From Sulfurimonas lithotrophica (GTDB lineage Bacteria; Campylobacterota; Campylobacteria; Campylobacterales; Sulfurimonadaceae), in NCBI RefSeq assembly GCF_009258225.1, contig NZ_CP043617.1, positions 1,984,001 to 2,048,000 on the forward strand: a stretch of 64,000 bases of DNA, in the 5' to 3' direction. A program made the translations under genes and the position numbers. Below are positions 6,220-12,587 of this stretch, piece by piece (position 1 is the stretch's first letter; each line of letters begins with the position of its first letter). The notes beneath the pieces are model-generated. The model was not told where the DNA came from, did not search any database, and was given only the letters and a program-made list of their open reading frames with translations.

Positions 6220-6816
6220 ATGTTAGTAACAAACCCAGCTCCGGATTTTACGGCAACTACAGTATTAGCAGACGGTTCAATCGTTGAAGATTTTAAACTA
6301 AGTGAAAACTTTGGTGAAAAAGGTACGGTTTTATTCTTCTATCCGTTAGACTTTACTTTCGTATGTCCGTCTGAGATTATTGCATTCTCTCACAGAATTG
6401 AAGATTTTAAATCTCGCGGTGTTAATGTTATAGGTGTATCTGTTGATTCTCAATTTTCACACTTTGCATGGAGAGAAACTCCTGTTGATAAAGGTGGAAT
6501 CGGGCGTATCAAATATCCACTGGTTGCAGATTTAAGTAAACAAATTTCAAGAGACTATGATGTACTTTTCGGTGAGTCTGTTGCTCTTCGCGGTTCATTC
6601 TTAATAGATGGAAAAGGTATTGTTCGTCACGCTGTTATAAACGACTTACCACTTGGTCGTAACATAGATGAGATGATTCGTATGGTAGATGCTATGCAAT
6701 TTACTGACGAGCACGGTGAAGTATGTGCTGCGGGTTGGAACAAAGGTGATGAAGGTATGAAACCTACAACTGAAGGTGTTGCTGAGTACCTTGGTAAACA
6801 CGAAAATAATTTATAA
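6220..6816 (+). CDS. 2-Cys peroxiredoxin (AhpC/TSA family)
   Basis: This 198-residue peroxidase reduces hydrogen peroxide and organic peroxides in the cytoplasm. The peroxidatic Cys49 lies in DFTFVCPSE and the resolving Cys (about residue 170) in EVCAAGWNKG, the layout of typical 2-Cys enzymes; the GGIGRIKYPL loop is also present. Length and C-terminus (AEYLGKHENNL) match AhpC/TsaA proteins of Campylobacterota. No AhpF reductase is adjacent, so a thioredoxin system is the likely reductant. AAAGGAAATTAT before the ATG is a good ribosome-binding site. A 9-bp hairpin follows. Confidence 0.95.
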   Translation: MLVTNPAPDFTATTVLADGSIVEDFKLSENFGEKGTVLFFYPLDFTFVCPSEIIAFSHRIEDFKSRGVNVIGVSVDSQFSHFAWRETPVDKGGIGRIKYPLVADLSKQISRDYDVLFGESVALRGSFLIDGKGIVRHAVINDLPLGRNIDEMIRMVDAMQFTDEHGEVCAAGWNKGDEGMKPTTEGVAEYLGKHENNL

Positions 6817-6830
6817 TAATTTTTTAAACA

Positions 6831-6854
6831 GATTCCAACTTTTATGTTGGAATC
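6831..6854 (+). terminator. Stem-loop after the peroxiredoxin gene
   Basis: A perfect 9-bp inverted repeat (GATTCCAAC and GTTGGAATC) with a 6-base loop lies 14 bases after the stop. No T run follows, so it may be a partial terminator or 3' stabiliser before the next gene, which begins at 6902. Confidence 0.45.
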
Positions 6855-6901
6855 AAGCTCTCTTAATATACAATTTTCCTAAAAATAAAATAGGGATATT
6901 T

Positions 6902-7849
6902 TTGTATAAGTTTTTTCTCCTCTTTTTTTTACCGACGTCAATACTTTTTGCCAAAGATATATATCCAACTAAAGAGTACAAGTCTTTTGGATTTGTGAAC
7001 GACTTTGTTGTAGATGGTGGTAAACTTTATGCCGCAAATGATGAAGGCAGTGTTGATATATTTGATACAAAAACACAAAAACTTATTGAGCAGATTGTAC
7101 TACCACCCGTAAATACCGCTATGGGGAAACTAATAGCTGCAAATATACTAAGCGTAGATAGAATAAACAACAAAACTTTACTTGTCAGTATGGGGCGTAA
7201 TGGATTTAGAAATGTCTGGATATATGAGAACAATAAACTAAAGCAAATTGTGGATGAGTCTAAAAAGCTAACTATAAAAGAAGCCCGTTTTGTAAATAAT
7301 GAGCAGATTATTTTTGGAACTTTCGGCTCGGAAATAATTTTACACGATACGTCCGAGCAGTATAATCTTTACAAAGCCCATGTATCTTACTCCACACTTG
7401 GAGATATAACTCTAAATACAGACAAAACAAAAATGATTTTATCTGATGAGAGCGGAGAGATAAAACTTATAGATATAAAAACTTCAAACATAGAAAAAAC
7501 CTACAACTCTCAAAACGTGGATAATGTTTACCGTGTGGCATATGCAAACGGTGTTATTATCACAGCAGGACAAGACAGACGTGTAGCCGTATATCAAAAC
7601 GACAAAGAAGACTACCATATAAAAAGCAACTTTTTAGTTTACTGTGTAGGTCTTAGTCCAAGCGGCAAAACAGGTATCTACTCAGCAGATGCGCAAAACA
7701 ATCTTCAAGTATTTAACACCCAGACAAAAAAGATGGGTGATAGACTTGTTGGTCACAACAGCCTAATAAATCAAATCAAATTTATAAGCGAAAATGAACT
7801 ATACAGTGTAGGAAGTCGTAATAAGATTTTTTATTGGAGACTTGACTGA
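6902..7849 (+). CDS. Periplasmic WD40-like beta-propeller protein, NapL-like
   Basis: This 315-residue protein has an N-terminal signal peptide (YKFFLLFFLPTSILFAKD) and then recurring blade-like segments ending in patterns such as GSVDIFDTKT, GEIKLIDIKT, RRVAVYQND and NNLQVFNTQ, so a periplasmic beta-propeller is expected. It resembles NapL, the accessory propeller of periplasmic nitrate reductase clusters in Campylobacterota, but no other nap gene is nearby; the NapL call is tentative. I start at the TTG at 6902 because AGGGA lies just upstream and the signal peptide begins there. The longer open frame would run back into the peroxiredoxin gene. Its 3' end overlaps the convergent helicase gene by 19 bases. 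Confidence 0.65.
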   Translation: MYKFFLLFFLPTSILFAKDIYPTKEYKSFGFVNDFVVDGGKLYAANDEGSVDIFDTKTQKLIEQIVLPPVNTAMGKLIAANILSVDRINNKTLLVSMGRNGFRNVWIYENNKLKQIVDESKKLTIKEARFVNNEQIIFGTFGSEIILHDTSEQYNLYKAHVSYSTLGDITLNTDKTKMILSDESGEIKLIDIKTSNIEKTYNSQNVDNVYRVAYANGVIITAGQDRRVAVYQNDKEDYHIKSNFLVYCVGLSPSGKTGIYSADAQNNLQVFNTQTKKMGDRLVGHNSLINQIKFISENELYSVGSRNKIFYWRLD

Positions 7850-9099
7850 GTTGCAAAATCCAAAGCTTTTTTATTTGCATATATAAGCTCGTACCATTGT
7901 CTGTTTGGGGCAATTAGGTTTAGTCTTTTTGGATTTGAACAACGCGATAGTGCTACATAAAACTGACTCGGTGCAAATATCTCATGCGTAGCTATTATCA
8001 AATCCTCTATACTCATCCCTTGAGATTTATGGATAGTTATTGCGTAAGCGAGTTTTATAGGGTATTGGTAGATGCTAAAAACGTCCTCTTCTTGAAGCTG
8101 TTTTTTACCCTCTTTTACTTTTTCAACCCATTTTGATTTACTCATTCTAACAGGTTCAAGCTTTACTATTTTTCCATCGGCTTTTTGAACATATATATAC
8201 TGGGCATCCATATTTACAACCCTGCCCTTTTGACCGTTAAAATAATTCCAAGCATTTCTTGTAAATAAAACAGGTACGCCTATTTTTAACTCCAAACTCT
8301 TCTCAATCCTTGCATCGCGTATAAAGTTTTCAATCTCGGAATCTTTTACCGAGTTATTATGTTTTATGATTTGGGCATCTTTGGTGAGCAAGTCTCCATC
8401 TACAAATTCAAGTTGAGCTTTATTATGTGCAGATGCAGATATATTTTTTCCAAAAAGGTAAGTAAACTGACTATAGTCTTCAGGCAGAGGTTTTATGTAT
8501 TCGTTTAGATGGTTATGTACATCTTCATCCACATATCCACGCCTTACATCTCCTAAAAGCTCGATGAATTTTTTATCGTCGGTTCTGTATATATGAGTAA
8601 GTTCAACTATCTCAAAAGCAAAATTACTCCAAGCTTGTGATTCAAAAGCAAAGTTCACTTCACTGCTTCCGCGAACTACGGGAGGGAGTTGTAAAAAATC
8701 ACCCACGACTAAAACAGAGCCTTTAAACTCAGCTTGTTTTAGACGAAGTTCAATCATCTCAAAAAGAGTATCACTAACCATTGAGATTTCATCTATAACT
8801 ATCAAATCCATAGAAAATATAAGCTTTTTTATTTTCTTTTTTATCTCAAACTTACCGCTGTTTTGCAGCTCCTCTAGGTTATTTGAGATGCCAAGATCCA
8901 AAAAACTGTGAAGAGTCTGCCCATCTATCAAAGTAGCTGCCATACCCGTAGATGCAAGACGTGCTATTTTTTTTGCATCTTGGGTATATGAATCTATGAT
9001 TTGTCTAGTCATTGTCGTTTTGCCGACACCTGCACCACCGGTTAAAAAGATGTTTTGTTTATTTTTTAGTTTTTCTAAGATTGTCTCTAAAATTTTCAT
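7831..9099 (-). CDS. Pif1-like SF1 DNA helicase
   Basis: This 422-residue ATPase of the Pif1/RecD branch of superfamily 1 opens almost directly with Walker A GGAGVGKTT (about 21-29), followed by Walker B VIDEISMV, the motif III region GDFLQLPPVV, and a C-terminal RecD-like lobe with TIHKSQGMS and YVALSRC. Such enzymes translocate 5' to 3' and clear structured or protein-bound DNA. It lacks the long N-terminal extension of RecD2. It is the last gene of a run after the BRCT/LRV, MoxR and VWA genes, starting 16 bases after the VWA stop. A functional link to them is inferred from spacing only. Confidence 0.85.
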   Translation of the reverse strand: MKILETILEKLKNKQNIFLTGGAGVGKTTMTRQIIDSYTQDAKKIARLASTGMAATLIDGQTLHSFLDLGISNNLEELQNSGKFEIKKKIKKLIFSMDLIVIDEISMVSDTLFEMIELRLKQAEFKGSVLVVGDFLQLPPVVRGSSEVNFAFESQAWSNFAFEIVELTHIYRTDDKKFIELLGDVRRGYVDEDVHNHLNEYIKPLPEDYSQFTYLFGKNISASAHNKAQLEFVDGDLLTKDAQIIKHNNSVKDSEIENFIRDARIEKSLELKIGVPVLFTRNAWNYFNGQKGRVVNMDAQYIYVQKADGKIVKLEPVRMSKSKWVEKVKEGKKQLQEEDVFSIYQYPIKLAYAITIHKSQGMSIEDLIIATHEIFAPSQFYVALSRCSNPKRLNLIAPNRQWYELIYANKKALDFATQSSLQ

Positions 9100-9115
9100 T
9101 GTCTAATTATACAAA

Positions 9116-10246
9116 TTATTTATCTATTAAAATAACATCTCCAAAAGGTATTTCAACATCATTTTTACTAACCCACTTTACTTCGTAGTTTGGCTTATCT
9201 TTTGGAAAAACACCGTCTAAATCGGAAAAGTAAAGCAATAACTTTGTATCTTCCAAACTCTCTTCTATATATGAAAAAACAGGACGAAAATCTGTACCGC
9301 CGCCGCCTTTTACATCAACTTCGAGTGTATCTCCCGTGTAAAAAGTGTTATGCGAGTGTATCTTGTCATCACATATCAAAACATCTATCTTATACTTTGG
9401 CACACTTAGCATCAGGTAATTTAACTCGCTTAAAAACTCACTTAATAGTTCATCATCAATCGAGCCTGATGAATCAATGGCTACGACAAGATTAAAAGTC
9501 TCACTTATTGCAGAAGGCAGATAAAAACCCATATATAGATACTTTTTATTTGGAGGCATCATAGTAAAGTCATCCCTTGCATACCTGTCTATTGCATCTC
9601 TTAGCTCATCACGCCAATTAATTTTACCCTTAGCATCTAAAGAAAAAAATCTTTTTACTGCCTCGGGAAAACGTGCATCATCTTTTTCTTTTTGTATTTC
9701 TGAGAGAACAAACTCTTCAAAAAGCTGGTCATTTAAAATCTGTTCAGTTGAACTCTCTTTTTTAGTTTCGTTATTTTGTTTAGAATCATCTTTTTCTATA
9801 TCGTCTGCATTATCGGCTTCATATTCTAAATTTTCATCATCGCGTAAAATGTCATCTTTTAACAAGGCATATATCTCTTCGGCATACAAACCTTCAAAAC
9901 GCTTGGAGTAATGAGCCTGATAAGGTCTCTCTAATCCGCTCTCTACAAGCATATCGTTTATAGCATAGTCTGTTGCCATCTGCCATAACCACCCTGAACG
10001 ATTGTTCTTTCTATTTTCATGCGATAAAGAGGCATGCATAGCGGAATTTGCCAAGGCAAACTCTATCTCATCTATACTTGCTTCATTTATAAACAATGTA
10101 CTGTACTCAAGCTTTGACTCATTTGCCCTAAAAGCTTCGATATCGTCGTTTTGAACTATATCTACCCTAGATGCAAGTGAGCCGAAAAAGGGATAATCTA
10201 CTAAAAGTTTAGCTTTTGCTTTTGAGATTTTATCTGCAGAGGACAT
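9116..10246 (-). CDS. DUF2201-type protein with C-terminal VWA domain
   Basis: The 376-residue protein has two parts. The N-terminal half resembles the DUF2201 putative metallopeptidase domain, with AMHASLSH (about residue 70) and the following WQMATDYAINDML; relative to the HExxH expected in that family as I know it, the first His and Glu appear to be replaced, so peptidase activity is doubtful. A very acidic linker (about 140-170) follows. The C-terminal half is a von Willebrand A domain with an intact metal-binding MIDAS set: DSSGS, then GGGGTDF, then FSDLDG. VWA proteins of this kind work with MoxR ATPases, and the moxR-like gene ends 2 bases upstream. Partners and substrate are unknown. 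Confidence 0.82.
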   Translation of the reverse strand: MSSADKISKAKAKLLVDYPFFGSLASRVDIVQNDDIEAFRANESKLEYSTLFINEASIDEIEFALANSAMHASLSHENRKNNRSGWLWQMATDYAINDMLVESGLERPYQAHYSKRFEGLYAEEIYALLKDDILRDDENLEYEADNADDIEKDDSKQNNETKKESSTEQILNDQLFEEFVLSEIQKEKDDARFPEAVKRFFSLDAKGKINWRDELRDAIDRYARDDFTMMPPNKKYLYMGFYLPSAISETFNLVVAIDSSGSIDDELLSEFLSELNYLMLSVPKYKIDVLICDDKIHSHNTFYTGDTLEVDVKGGGGTDFRPVFSYIEESLEDTKLLLYFSDLDGVFPKDKPNYEVKWVSKNDVEIPFGDVILIDK

Positions 10247-10248
10247 AT

Positions 10249-11247
10249 CTATGCCAATAAATAAGCAAATTTCTCAACCCACTCTTTAAATACTGCAGAG
10301 TGTTCCATACTTACAGAGTTTCTTTGCAGGTCTTGAACAACCTTTACACTAAACTCGCCTTTTAAATTTAGGGAGTATTTTAAAACATTATCAAGTGCAT
10401 CGACATCTCTCAGTACGGCAGATACAAGTCCTACACTTAAAGCATGAAGTACATCCGCTTCTTGTGGATATTCTGCTTCACCGCTGTTTAATATATCTTC
10501 AATATTCGGCAGTTTGTTTTGCACCTTTTTAAAACTAAGATATCCTACTGCTACCTCTTTAGATATAGCACCTGATATGGTCTCCAACAAAACACTTGCA
10601 TCTATCTCACTCTTTAAAACTTTATCTACATACTCCCAACTTCTTGGAGTTGCAAAAGATTTTTCCAAATTTTTTGCATCAAAGGTAAACAGATGCTCGT
10701 TTTTGTATGAGATATACCCTATTATAGACTCGTCTATATTGTTTTGATATGCCCAGTCACACCAATCTTCTACGCTTATATCCATCTCAAAGTGAACAAA
10801 CCTGTTTGCAAGTGGTGCACCCATCTTATAAGTAACACCTTTATCACCCTCTCGGTTTCCCGCCGCGACGATAGCCCAGCCGTCTGGTAGTTCATACTCA
10901 CCTACACGTCTGTCAAGTATAAGCTGATAAGCAGATGCCTGTACACTAGGCGGTGCGGAGTTTAGCTCATCTAAAAAGAGTATGCCCTCTCCGTCTTTAG
11001 GTAAAAAAGCAGGTGGCGCCCAAAGTGCCTGATGTGCATCTCTATCATAAAAAGGGATGCCTTTTAAATCTGTAGGATCCATCAAAGCAAGACGTAAATC
11101 AATAAAACCAATATCTTTTTTTTGTGCAATCTGCTTAACAATAGAACTCTTACCAATCCCGGGAGCTCCCCATAAAAACACGGGTACTTTTTTATCCGTC
11201 AACTTACTTAAAGTTACACTTAAATCGTGTGCTTTCATATCTGCCAT
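10249..11247 (-). CDS. MoxR-family AAA+ ATPase
   Basis: This 332-residue AAA+ protein carries Walker A GAPGIGKSS (about 27-35), Walker B ILFLDELN, sensor 1 IVAAGN and an arginine-finger region with PLANRF. MoxR ATPases act as chaperone-like machines that mature or remodel partner complexes, normally with a VWA protein encoded next door, exactly the arrangement here (2-base gap to the DUF2201-VWA gene). The start overlaps the end of the BRCT/LRV gene by 13 bases, so at least these three genes should be co-translated. The client complex is not identifiable from the window. Confidence 0.9.
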   Translation of the reverse strand: MADMKAHDLSVTLSKLTDKKVPVFLWGAPGIGKSSIVKQIAQKKDIGFIDLRLALMDPTDLKGIPFYDRDAHQALWAPPAFLPKDGEGILFLDELNSAPPSVQASAYQLILDRRVGEYELPDGWAIVAAGNREGDKGVTYKMGAPLANRFVHFEMDISVEDWCDWAYQNNIDESIIGYISYKNEHLFTFDAKNLEKSFATPRSWEYVDKVLKSEIDASVLLETISGAISKEVAVGYLSFKKVQNKLPNIEDILNSGEAEYPQEADVLHALSVGLVSAVLRDVDALDNVLKYSLNLKGEFSVKVVQDLQRNSVSMEHSAVFKEWVEKFAYLLA

Positions 11248-12587
11248 CCTATATTTTCTTGCTGAATATGCCTACCAAAACTCGGGTTTTCTTTAACATA
11301 GCGCTCAAATCTGGAATCAAGTTGAAGTTGGTAAAGGATATCTACGGGTGTTGATATATTTTTACTTAATGCCATTTTAATTCCTTCGACATCTGATTCA
11401 TATAATTTATATAAGATATCTTGCGGCGTATTTTTGTTTAACGCTAAAGCCAAATAGTTTTTTTCGTCTTTAAAGCCAAGTTCAAGGATGCTTTTTGGCG
11501 TTGAAGGATTAGAATACAATGCAAAATCAACCTTATCTTTTTTATGTTTTAGCATCTCAGGAATCAACTCTTTATATAAACTTTTATTGTGAGCCAAGTT
11601 TTCTTCTACTTCATCTAAATGGAAATACAATAAGTCCCCTTGCATAAACGGATTTATATTTTCGTTTTGAGCAAGTTCACAAGAAAAACTATCTTTAAAA
11701 AAATCATATTTTTTTACATCCAGTTTTATATATTTTGCCATATTTTTAGAATATGCTTCATCTTCTAAAAATTTGTTAAAAATTTCATCGGATAAATTTT
11801 CACAACACGACAATGCTTCGAGAACTTTTTTCTCCCCTGTTTCATACAAAAGATTTTGTACCTCTTCATCTATATCTTTTCTCATAGCTATAAGTGTTTT
11901 AACATAAGTATTTGCTTCTTTTATAAAAAGTTTTAAAACTTGTTTTGAAGTAGAGTTGTGTGTAGCTATTGATGTAACTATTCTATACCCGTGGTCTTTA
12001 TCATTTGTTTTAAAACTTTTTCTGAGCGGCTTTAAATTAGCTATTGTTTCTATTATATTTTTATCGTTACACTGCAATACGAGATGCATAAGTCCCAGTT
12101 TTGAAAACTCGACATTATGGTTTCTTTCTATGTTTTTATAAAATCTCCTAATTAAAGATGCACTTACGTCCCTGTTATCATCACTCTCGTAAAAGTCATC
12201 TTCCCCCCAATTATACATCTTTAACAATCTAAAATAAAACTCATCACTTATCTGCGGATTCGTCAAAAAGTTTTTTAGTCTTTGCGTATCGGATGAGAGT
12301 TTTAAACTCATCATCAAAACATCTTCGTCAATAGATTCCGTAAGCATCTTCTCAAACACTTCAATATTTAAAAACTCTGCTACTTTTTTATTGTATAGAT
12401 TCTCACTCTCAGTAGTTTGCAAAGGTGTCATCATAGCCCCCTCAACTATGTAATCTACACCTTCGTCATACTCTTTTACAAGTTCTATATTATGAACTTT
12501 TAACTGTGTTAAAAGTTCATTTTGAGAAAAAGACCTGCTTTTTCCAAACAATAATATTTTTTTGTTTTTTAAACTTTTTATATTCAT
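11235..12587 (-). CDS. BRCT-like/leucine-rich-variant repeat protein
   Basis: I do not recognise a named family for this 450-residue protein. The N-terminus (about 8-56) looks like a BRCT fold: KKILLFGKSRSF, a helix, then VDYIVEG. The remainder is all-helical, with repeats of about 22-25 residues of LRV character, clearest near the C-terminus: YSNPSTPKSILEL, ALNKNTPQDILYKL, ALSKNISTPVDILYQL. LRV and HEAT-like solenoids bind protein partners, and BRCT domains bind phosphoproteins or DNA ends. It is the first gene of the cassette and overlaps the MoxR gene by 13 bases, suggesting it is the adaptor or target selector of the MoxR-VWA pair. Confidence 0.7.
   Translation of the reverse strand: MNIKSLKNKKILLFGKSRSFSQNELLTQLKVHNIELVKEYDEGVDYIVEGAMMTPLQTTESENLYNKKVAEFLNIEVFEKMLTESIDEDVLMMSLKLSSDTQRLKNFLTNPQISDEFYFRLLKMYNWGEDDFYESDDNRDVSASLIRRFYKNIERNHNVEFSKLGLMHLVLQCNDKNIIETIANLKPLRKSFKTNDKDHGYRIVTSIATHNSTSKQVLKLFIKEANTYVKTLIAMRKDIDEEVQNLLYETGEKKVLEALSCCENLSDEIFNKFLEDEAYSKNMAKYIKLDVKKYDFFKDSFSCELAQNENINPFMQGDLLYFHLDEVEENLAHNKSLYKELIPEMLKHKKDKVDFALYSNPSTPKSILELGFKDEKNYLALALNKNTPQDILYKLYESDVEGIKMALSKNISTPVDILYQLQLDSRFERYVKENPSFGRHIQQENIGWQI

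Follow-up and report, generated by a model that had tools for sequence, protein, structure and literature searches.

Four minus-strand open reading frames (ORFs) adjoin one another at positions 7831 to 12587 of a 64,000-nucleotide stretch of Sulfurimonas lithotrophica DNA (contig NZ_CP043617.1, positions 1,984,001 to 2,048,000), which is referred to here as the window and which comes from a genome of 2,415,083 bases. In gene order they encode a protein with a BRCT domain and a helical solenoid, a MoxR-type AAA+ ATPase, a von Willebrand factor A (VWA) domain protein, and a Pif1-like helicase; the first two genes overlap by 13 bp, and the gaps that follow measure 2 and 16 bp. The original prediction, made from the letters of the window alone, read these genes as a possible four-part system. 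The ORF list confirmed all four genes with the positions and spacing that it had given, and its reading of the domains was good as well, with the BRCT fold and solenoid borne out by an AlphaFold2 model and by structure comparison and with the Pif1, DUF2201-VWA, and AAA_3 assignments backed by Pfam. Here we report that the first three genes (the trio) form a conserved unit to which the helicase does not appear to belong and that they probably encode a MoxR-VWA remodeling machine in which the peptidase is dead and the BRCT-solenoid protein serves as a dedicated adaptor. The features of the locus are as follows, with the basis of each assignment in parentheses.

11235..12587, minus strand: solenoid gene, 450 amino acids (aa), with a BRCT domain, a conserved middle, and a leucine rich repeat variant (LRV)/HEAT-like solenoid; proposed substrate adaptor (ORF, model, structure matches, position upstream of MoxR)
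12330..12587, minus strand: BRCT domain, residues 1 to 86 (model fold order, structure matches)
11994..12329, minus strand: conserved middle helical segment, residues 87 to 198 (column entropy)
11238..11993, minus strand: LRV/HEAT-like solenoid, residues 199 to 450 (model helices, fold matches)
10249..11247, minus strand: MoxR-type AAA+ ATPase, 332 aa, catalytic motifs intact (Pfam AAA_3, motif alignment)
9116..10246, minus strand: DUF2201_N plus DUF2201 VWA protein, 376 aa, in which a metallopeptidase-type domain lacking HExxH precedes a VWA domain with an intact MIDAS (Pfam, alignments, structure model)
10034..10048, minus strand: lost-HExxH site, residues 67 to 71, reading NSAMH (homolog alignment)
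9119..9505, minus strand: VWA domain, residues 248 to 376, with metal ion-dependent adhesion site (MIDAS) residues D258, S260, S262, T318, and D342 (alignment, fold match)
7831..9099, minus strand: Pif1-like superfamily 1B (SF1B) helicase, 422 aa; a neighbor, judged to be outside the unit (Pfam PIF1, solved Pif1 helicases, distribution)

Conservation of the three-gene unit

The adjacency of the first three genes exceeds what chance would give. A test based on MoxR used 80 named GTDB loci that ranked highest among 547 relatives and came mostly from Sulfurimonas. The solenoid gene lay directly upstream of MoxR, with a gap of less than 200 bp, in 79 of these loci; in the 80th, the MoxR match starts at base 82 of the contig, where the locus is cut by the contig end. 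A VWA gene was present in the fetched stretches of 63 of the loci, no more than 200 bp away in 50 and no more than 1.5 kb away in 59.

A second test covered 149 genomes of the order, with cutoffs of 1e-8 for the solenoid profile, 1e-20 for MoxR, and 1e-15 for VWA (below, labels beginning with G denote genomes, with L loci, and with f families). The solenoid profile matched in 55 genomes, of which 34 carried the trio protein (33 long and one a fragment) and 21 had shorter proteins with C-terminal matches only, while MoxR relatives were found in 42 genomes and VWA relatives in 39. MoxR lay no more than 1 kb downstream on the same strand in 28 of the 32 testable solenoid genomes, G038 and G130 having been excluded because their solenoid gene lies at a contig edge. 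The four exceptions were G006 (64 kb apart), G118 (other contig), G081 (a MoxR fragment on the opposite strand), and G141 (no MoxR nearby); the trio is complete but scattered in G006 and G118. Two of the 28 genomes have a contig that stops after MoxR, and VWA followed within about 1 kb in 23 of the 26 that remained testable. Trio-type MoxR, defined by 487 bits or more, occurred in 33 genomes, 30 with the solenoid gene and three (G070, G089, and G095) without it. In both tests, the BRCT-like/LRV gene that the original prediction had placed with MoxR-VWA was conserved there.

The surroundings of the trio, scanned in representatives of the families, include NhaA in the genus of the window, EF-G and ankyrin in f4, MlaD and an ABC auxiliary lipoprotein in f7, and a peptide deformylase, an integrase, or a penicillin-binding protein in f6. 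Because these neighbors change by family while the trio mostly stays together, general synteny alone does not account for its linkage. In f4, the trio is followed by a gene of about 172 aa, and the one that was scanned (L054:10602-11120) encodes a Macro-domain protein; ORFs of 172 to 186 aa come after VWA in the f4 loci L045, L053, and L055 and about 0.6 kb further on in L043.

The interval between MoxR and VWA looks like a tolerated insertion site. Genes found there encode type III restriction, HepT/MNT toxin-antitoxin, DUF475/TerC, sulfate permease, and GGDEF-EAL proteins (L155, L159, L162, L182, L203, and L212), and ferritin is also among them. We considered these inserts as cargo and rejected the idea, since the genes are miscellaneous and share no theme. 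An apparent solenoid-MoxR fusion in G117 was likewise set aside, as the joined frame crosses unresolved bases and hence provides no evidence.

The BRCT-solenoid protein

The 450-aa protein had no family match better than an E value of 0.01 in Pfam, NCBIfam, PADLOC, or PHROGs. Pfam LRV was unmatched at E values up to 0.1, and a sequence search of the PDB gave nothing significant. An AlphaFold2 model built with 75 sequences had a mean predicted local distance difference test (pLDDT) score of 92.7 and a predicted template modeling (pTM) score of 0.81. Residues 1 to 86 of the model follow the order beta-alpha-beta-beta-alpha-beta-alpha, which is that of a BRCT domain, and a helical solenoid extends from about residue 87 onward. 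The best VIA match of the BRCT part was DnlJ ligase in 9a6z_B (Z 9.9; root mean square deviation 1.9 over 76 residues at 21% identity), which was obtained by integrative modeling and is not simply a solved structure. Solved BRCT domains (RFC, PARP4, XRCC1, Rev1, and others) gave VIA Z scores of 6.6 to 7.8, and the BRCT rows returned by Foldseek had E values of 0.03 to 0.07 with a probability of 1.00. Among viral fold matches at an E value of 0.001 or better, four of seven were named LRV, and 1lrv matched at VIA Z 6.7 over 116 residues, which is in the range of common repeat arrangements. Short proteins in 21 of the 149 genomes (frames of about 140 to 230 aa) match the C-terminal solenoid repeats only and seem to represent a separate LRV-like family.

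Residues 87 to 198 are the best conserved part of the protein, with a mean column entropy of 1.09 bits in alignment A4, compared with 1.59 for the BRCT domain and 2.13 and 1.82 for the repeats; their entropy is the lowest in alignment A1 too. This segment is a candidate contact surface for MoxR or VWA. In a canonical BRCT phosphate pocket, a serine or threonine precedes a conserved glycine at the first strand-helix turn. Residue 14 of the trio protein is instead leucine, phenylalanine, or valine in all 104 readable rows (31 of 31 in A1 and 73 of 75 in A4, the other two being gapped; the two alignments share some genomes). DNA binding was also considered from charge and found no support, the protein being acidic (isoelectric point, 5.5). 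With a BRCT domain present, the client may be linked to DNA, although the domain does not prove this. The original prediction had gone further and tied the system to DNA ends or forks, for repair, replication restart, or defense; we found nothing direct for this link, its basis being the Pif1 neighbor and a BRCT fold from which the serine or threonine of the canonical phosphate pocket is absent.

The MoxR ATPase and a VWA protein with a lost peptidase motif

The MoxR protein matches Pfam AAA_3 (E 2.5e-7; 31.1 bits against a cutoff of 27). Walker A, Walker B, sensor 1, the arginine finger, and sensor 2 are kept in 24 of 24 rows of alignment A3, and the small substitutions that occur there spare the catalytic residues. 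A quick tree of MoxR, supported by the Shimodaira-Hasegawa-like approximate likelihood ratio test (SH-aLRT) only, was made from the 96 rows that remained after thinning of the 204 collected sequences and the window. Trio-type MoxR formed one group of 52 rows (support, 98), which includes all 43 solenoid-flanked Campylobacterota rows, and the presence of a solenoid gene beside MoxR changed 6 times on the tree, compared with a mean of 31.7 changes when labels were shuffled. The MoxR of Allomeiothermus, which has an LRV gene beside it, fell outside the trio group on a very long branch.

A second, more distant MoxR-VWA pair, at about 335 to 364 bits, is also found in the order. In L237 (7680-14241), genes for NifQ, ODP-flavodoxin, nitroreductase, and redoxin adjoin this pair, as if for metalloenzyme or nitrogen-related maturation, and a similar gene row is seen in L236 and L242. 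Trio-type MoxR-VWA without a nearby solenoid gene was observed in L235, L236, L238, L239, and L241, and those genomes carry the second pair as well; the two pairs are about 3 kb apart in L235 and about 9 kb apart in L236.

The VWA protein consists of DUF2201_N (Pfam, 1e-25) followed by the DUF2201 VWA-like domain (4.7e-23). The HExxH and MIDAS motifs were counted in 172 homologs plus the window. The Campylobacterota accounted for 101 copies (the window, 63 from GTDB loci, and 37 from order loci); the order loci include the second pair, and some genomes may be in both sets. HExxH was found in none of the 101 Campylobacterota copies, all of which, including that of the window, are readable at the site, whereas 60 of 63 viral copies and all eight readable plasmid and phage copies have it (a ninth was unreadable). 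The site mostly reads N-x-x-M/L-H in trio-type copies, and three order copies read HAALH, HAALQ, and NSAMK. The MIDAS pattern DxSxS-T-D is complete in 92 of the 101 Campylobacterota copies and gapped in the other nine. As judged from these alignments, the peptidase motif is lost and the VWA grip is kept in the Campylobacterota. A zincin fold was looked for at the N terminus, and the structural matches of the VWA model cover mainly residues 248 to 376.

Relatives in phages and plasmids

The family is common in phages. At an E value of 1e-5, a MoxR relative was present in 871 phage records (of 50,697 in all) and in 126 plasmid records (of 72,556); among the 80 viral loci that were fetched, 63 had a VWA relative. 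The trio proteins matched PHROG 1297 (MoxR, E 1.5e-100) and PHROG 1314 (VWA, E 1.7e-74). PHROG 1314, the best phage family of the window VWA protein (9116-10246), is labeled "HNH endonuclease," which looks like a mislabeling. The phage version of the pair has been described by Iyer et al. (PMC7824862), who present a jumbo-phage MoxR-metallopeptidase-VWA pair and propose a role in virion assembly with peptide cleavage. The pair of group 2.2 jumbo phages belongs to the same MoxR and VWA families as the trio. The phage copies differ in keeping HExxH, and the solenoid gene was found in none of the 80 viral loci with the A1 profile at an E value of 0.001.

The viral neighbors scanned were 82 proteins, namely, 80 of 150 listed cluster representatives (from 194 clusters) and two of Bacillus phage G, and LRV was not among the 25 families listed of the 66 found. 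In Bacillus phage G, gp563 (L250:4083-4838), about 1 kb upstream of the MoxR gp566, has an apparently solenoid-like fold (E 0.059) and a weak profile match; the VWA relative is gp576.

On two Thermaceae plasmids, an LRV solenoid gene adjoins the MoxR-VWA pair, as the solenoid gene does in the trio, which counts in favor of the adaptor interpretation. The order is LRV-VWA-MoxR on Allomeiothermus silvanus pMESIL01 (Pfam LRV, 1.4e-57) and LRV-MoxR-VWA on Thermus oshimai pTHEOS01 (2.6e-11); the former order is swapped relative to the trio, and the Allomeiothermus MoxR is very divergent. No LRV- or HEAT-named gene stood next to the pair in the Synechocystis, Burkholderia, Miltoncostaea, Streptomyces, and Acinetobacter plasmid records viewed, in which many genes are unnamed. 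A 592-aa protein upstream of the pair in Sphaerotilus had no Pfam match, the genes around the match in the Sphaerospermopsis stretch are labeled hypothetical, and the Azospirillum record is unannotated; Synechocystis pSYSA has a weak profile match of 26 bits about 5 kb from the pair. In Acinetobacter baumannii pRBH2-3 (L253), the MoxR-like and VWA genes stand in the same row as a gene for DNA-directed RNA polymerase, and the record resembles an N4-type phage maintained as a plasmid.

Proposed mechanism

We infer that the three proteins form a complex that remodels a client. Because its motifs are intact, MoxR is predicted to form an AAA+ ring that hydrolyzes ATP. The VWA protein, its catalytic motif lost, would sit on this ring as a cochaperone and, as the analogy of NorQ-NorD and Midasin suggests, would grip a partner through its intact MIDAS. 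The BRCT-solenoid protein would be the dedicated third part, with the solenoid and BRCT domain selecting and presenting the client, and the ring would remodel that client rather than cut it. A MoxR-VWA remodeling pair with the solenoid as likely target selector had been part of the original prediction and is supported here, the selector role being one that we infer.

Prior descriptions exist of MoxR-VWA machines, of MoxR systems with three parts, and of the phage version with a metallopeptidase. Midasin (Rea1/Mdn1), which is the closest solved sequence to the trio MoxR (E 5.2e-13), combines an AAA+ ring with a MIDAS in a single giant eukaryotic protein that remodels large complexes and has the ribosome as its client. 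NorQ-NorD, CbbQ-CbbO, and RavA-ViaA resemble the trio in pairing a MoxR AAA+ ring with a MIDAS-bearing VWA cochaperone, but they are different subfamilies, and none of them is known to have a BRCT-solenoid third gene or DUF2201_N. NorQ-NorD works through a finger of the VWA domain that enters the MoxR ring, a MIDAS that is thought to bind the client, and remodeling driven by ATP hydrolysis (PMC13036017, PMC9976466). We did not find a BRCT-LRV third component or a lineage-wide loss of HExxH in open-license papers. No open-license PMC paper was found that combined MoxR with BRCT, MoxR with leucine rich repeat variant, or MoxR with VWA and DUF2201, an absence that is weak as evidence.

Several observations weigh against the adaptor interpretation. 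Foldseek gave no PDB match to the solenoid protein at an E value of 0.001 or better. VWA was absent from the fetched stretch in 17 of the 80 named loci, five of which have a contig end less than 300 bases from MoxR, and in G106, G129, and G140, it lies far from solenoid-MoxR. Trio-type MoxR-VWA without a nearby solenoid gene occurs as extra copies in G102, G107, and G147; in G070 and G089, such a pair is the sole trio-type pair, and the genome has no solenoid gene at the cutoff used, and G095 has a MoxR-VWA pair with the solenoid gene undetected. The Thermaceae solenoids match the trio protein in the repeats only, not in the BRCT domain or the middle, and the VWA proteins next to them keep HExxH. 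Five MoxR-VWA pairs without a nearby solenoid gene are nested in the trio group of the tree beside f4 copies, which suggests loss, and the repeat-only match and retained HExxH of the Thermaceae mean that theirs may be a separate recruitment.

A bolder form of the adaptor interpretation, which we put forward tentatively and consider rather unlikely, is that of a bacterial Midasin-like machine for DNA-bound complexes. The MoxR ring and dead-peptidase VWA protein, guided by the BRCT-LRV adaptor, would dismantle or mature a repair or replication complex, and the machine would have evolved from a cutting AAA+ metallopeptidase shared with phages through loss of the active site and gain of the adaptor.

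Alternative explanations and neighboring genes

It is possible, although not likely, that the solenoid protein is itself the client and that MoxR-VWA switches or matures a BRCT-LRV protein that is the actual worker, for example, on DNA or on a large complex. Consistent with this, almost every locus has a single dedicated gene next to MoxR, and NorQD, which is well studied, targets a protein encoded in its own operon (PMC9976466). However, residues 87 to 198 might form a surface for docking or one that does the work, and the present results do not distinguish a client from an adaptor.

Maturation of a metalloenzyme, as in NorQ-NorD or CbbQ-CbbO, appears doubtful; MoxR-VWA would then insert the metal of an enzyme of respiration or carbon fixation, and the solenoid protein would act as a scaffold. 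BRCT domains are not known from metalloenzyme maturation systems. MoxR-VWA pairs of known function often have such a role (PMC13036017, PMC9976466, PMC7159879), and the related second pair adjoins the NifQ gene row of L237. However, among the maps and the minority of neighbors that were scanned, no metalloenzyme gene was seen to recur next to the trio from family to family.

A four-gene repair or replication cassette that includes Pif1, as originally predicted, is very improbable. The helicase itself is well supported (Pfam PIF1, 6.6e-30), matches solved Pif1 helicases, and has the helicase motifs. It comes directly after VWA, with a gap of no more than 30 bp or a slight overlap, in the window, L188, L216, L233, and G136, and 37 of the 80 named loci have it downstream, in most cases some 1.3 kb past VWA; a BRCT domain is also typical of DNA-repair proteins. 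However, when Pif1 relatives were counted at an E value of 1e-30 among the 149 genomes, 79 had one, 26 with the solenoid gene and 53 without it, and eight of the 34 solenoid genomes, all in f4, had none. Pif1 was no more than 4 kb from the trio in seven of the 26 genomes with both, all of them in f1, the family of the window; the remaining 19 include many drafts in which the Pif1 and solenoid genes are on separate contigs. Pif1 matches appeared only in f1 loci (six of 32) in the order maps, and in 28 of the 37 named loci, an opposite-strand relative of the L161 response-regulator-GGDEF gene separates VWA from Pif1. Pif1 thus occurs regularly apart from the trio, the outcome that the original prediction had itself named as counting against it. 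As its distribution is independent of the trio, Pif1 was rejected as a fourth member, and the four-gene cassette is largely refuted as a general system. We read Pif1 as a long-standing neighbor in one family and not as a component.

A convergent WD40 beta-propeller gene (window 6776-7849) shares its last 19 bases with the end of the Pif1 gene. It was considered as a beta-propeller partner and rejected, as it was absent from the 32 order maps and the 80 named-locus maps and appeared once, 6.6 kb away (L244).

An antiphage or conflict role of the MoxR-vWA ternary kind is suggested by the layout but seems highly unlikely. The hosts of the trio are not known to be multicellular, unlike those of the ternary conflict systems. 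Those systems share with the trio the arrangement of MoxR, vWA, and a third component, but as described by Kaur et al. (2020, PMC7159879), their third component is VMAP, iSTAND, FtsH, or a vWA-fused beta-propeller, whereas that of the trio is BRCT-LRV and no variety of effectors was seen. None of the VMAP, iSTAND, FtsH, and beta-propeller families scored over the cutoff in Pfam, NCBIfam, or PADLOC, the PADLOC matches of the trio were weak (best E, 0.0011 for MoxR), the match to bpMoxR had an E value of 0.083, and the trio often lies beside housekeeping genes (NhaA, AhpC, and metK).

Significance

MoxR-VWA pairs are widespread, few of their clients are known, and how a client is chosen is an open question. 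The BRCT protein encoded by a fixed third gene offers a direct handle on the client. The results also suggest that a family common to hundreds of phages has shifted, in these bacteria, from an apparent cutter to an apparent remodeler.

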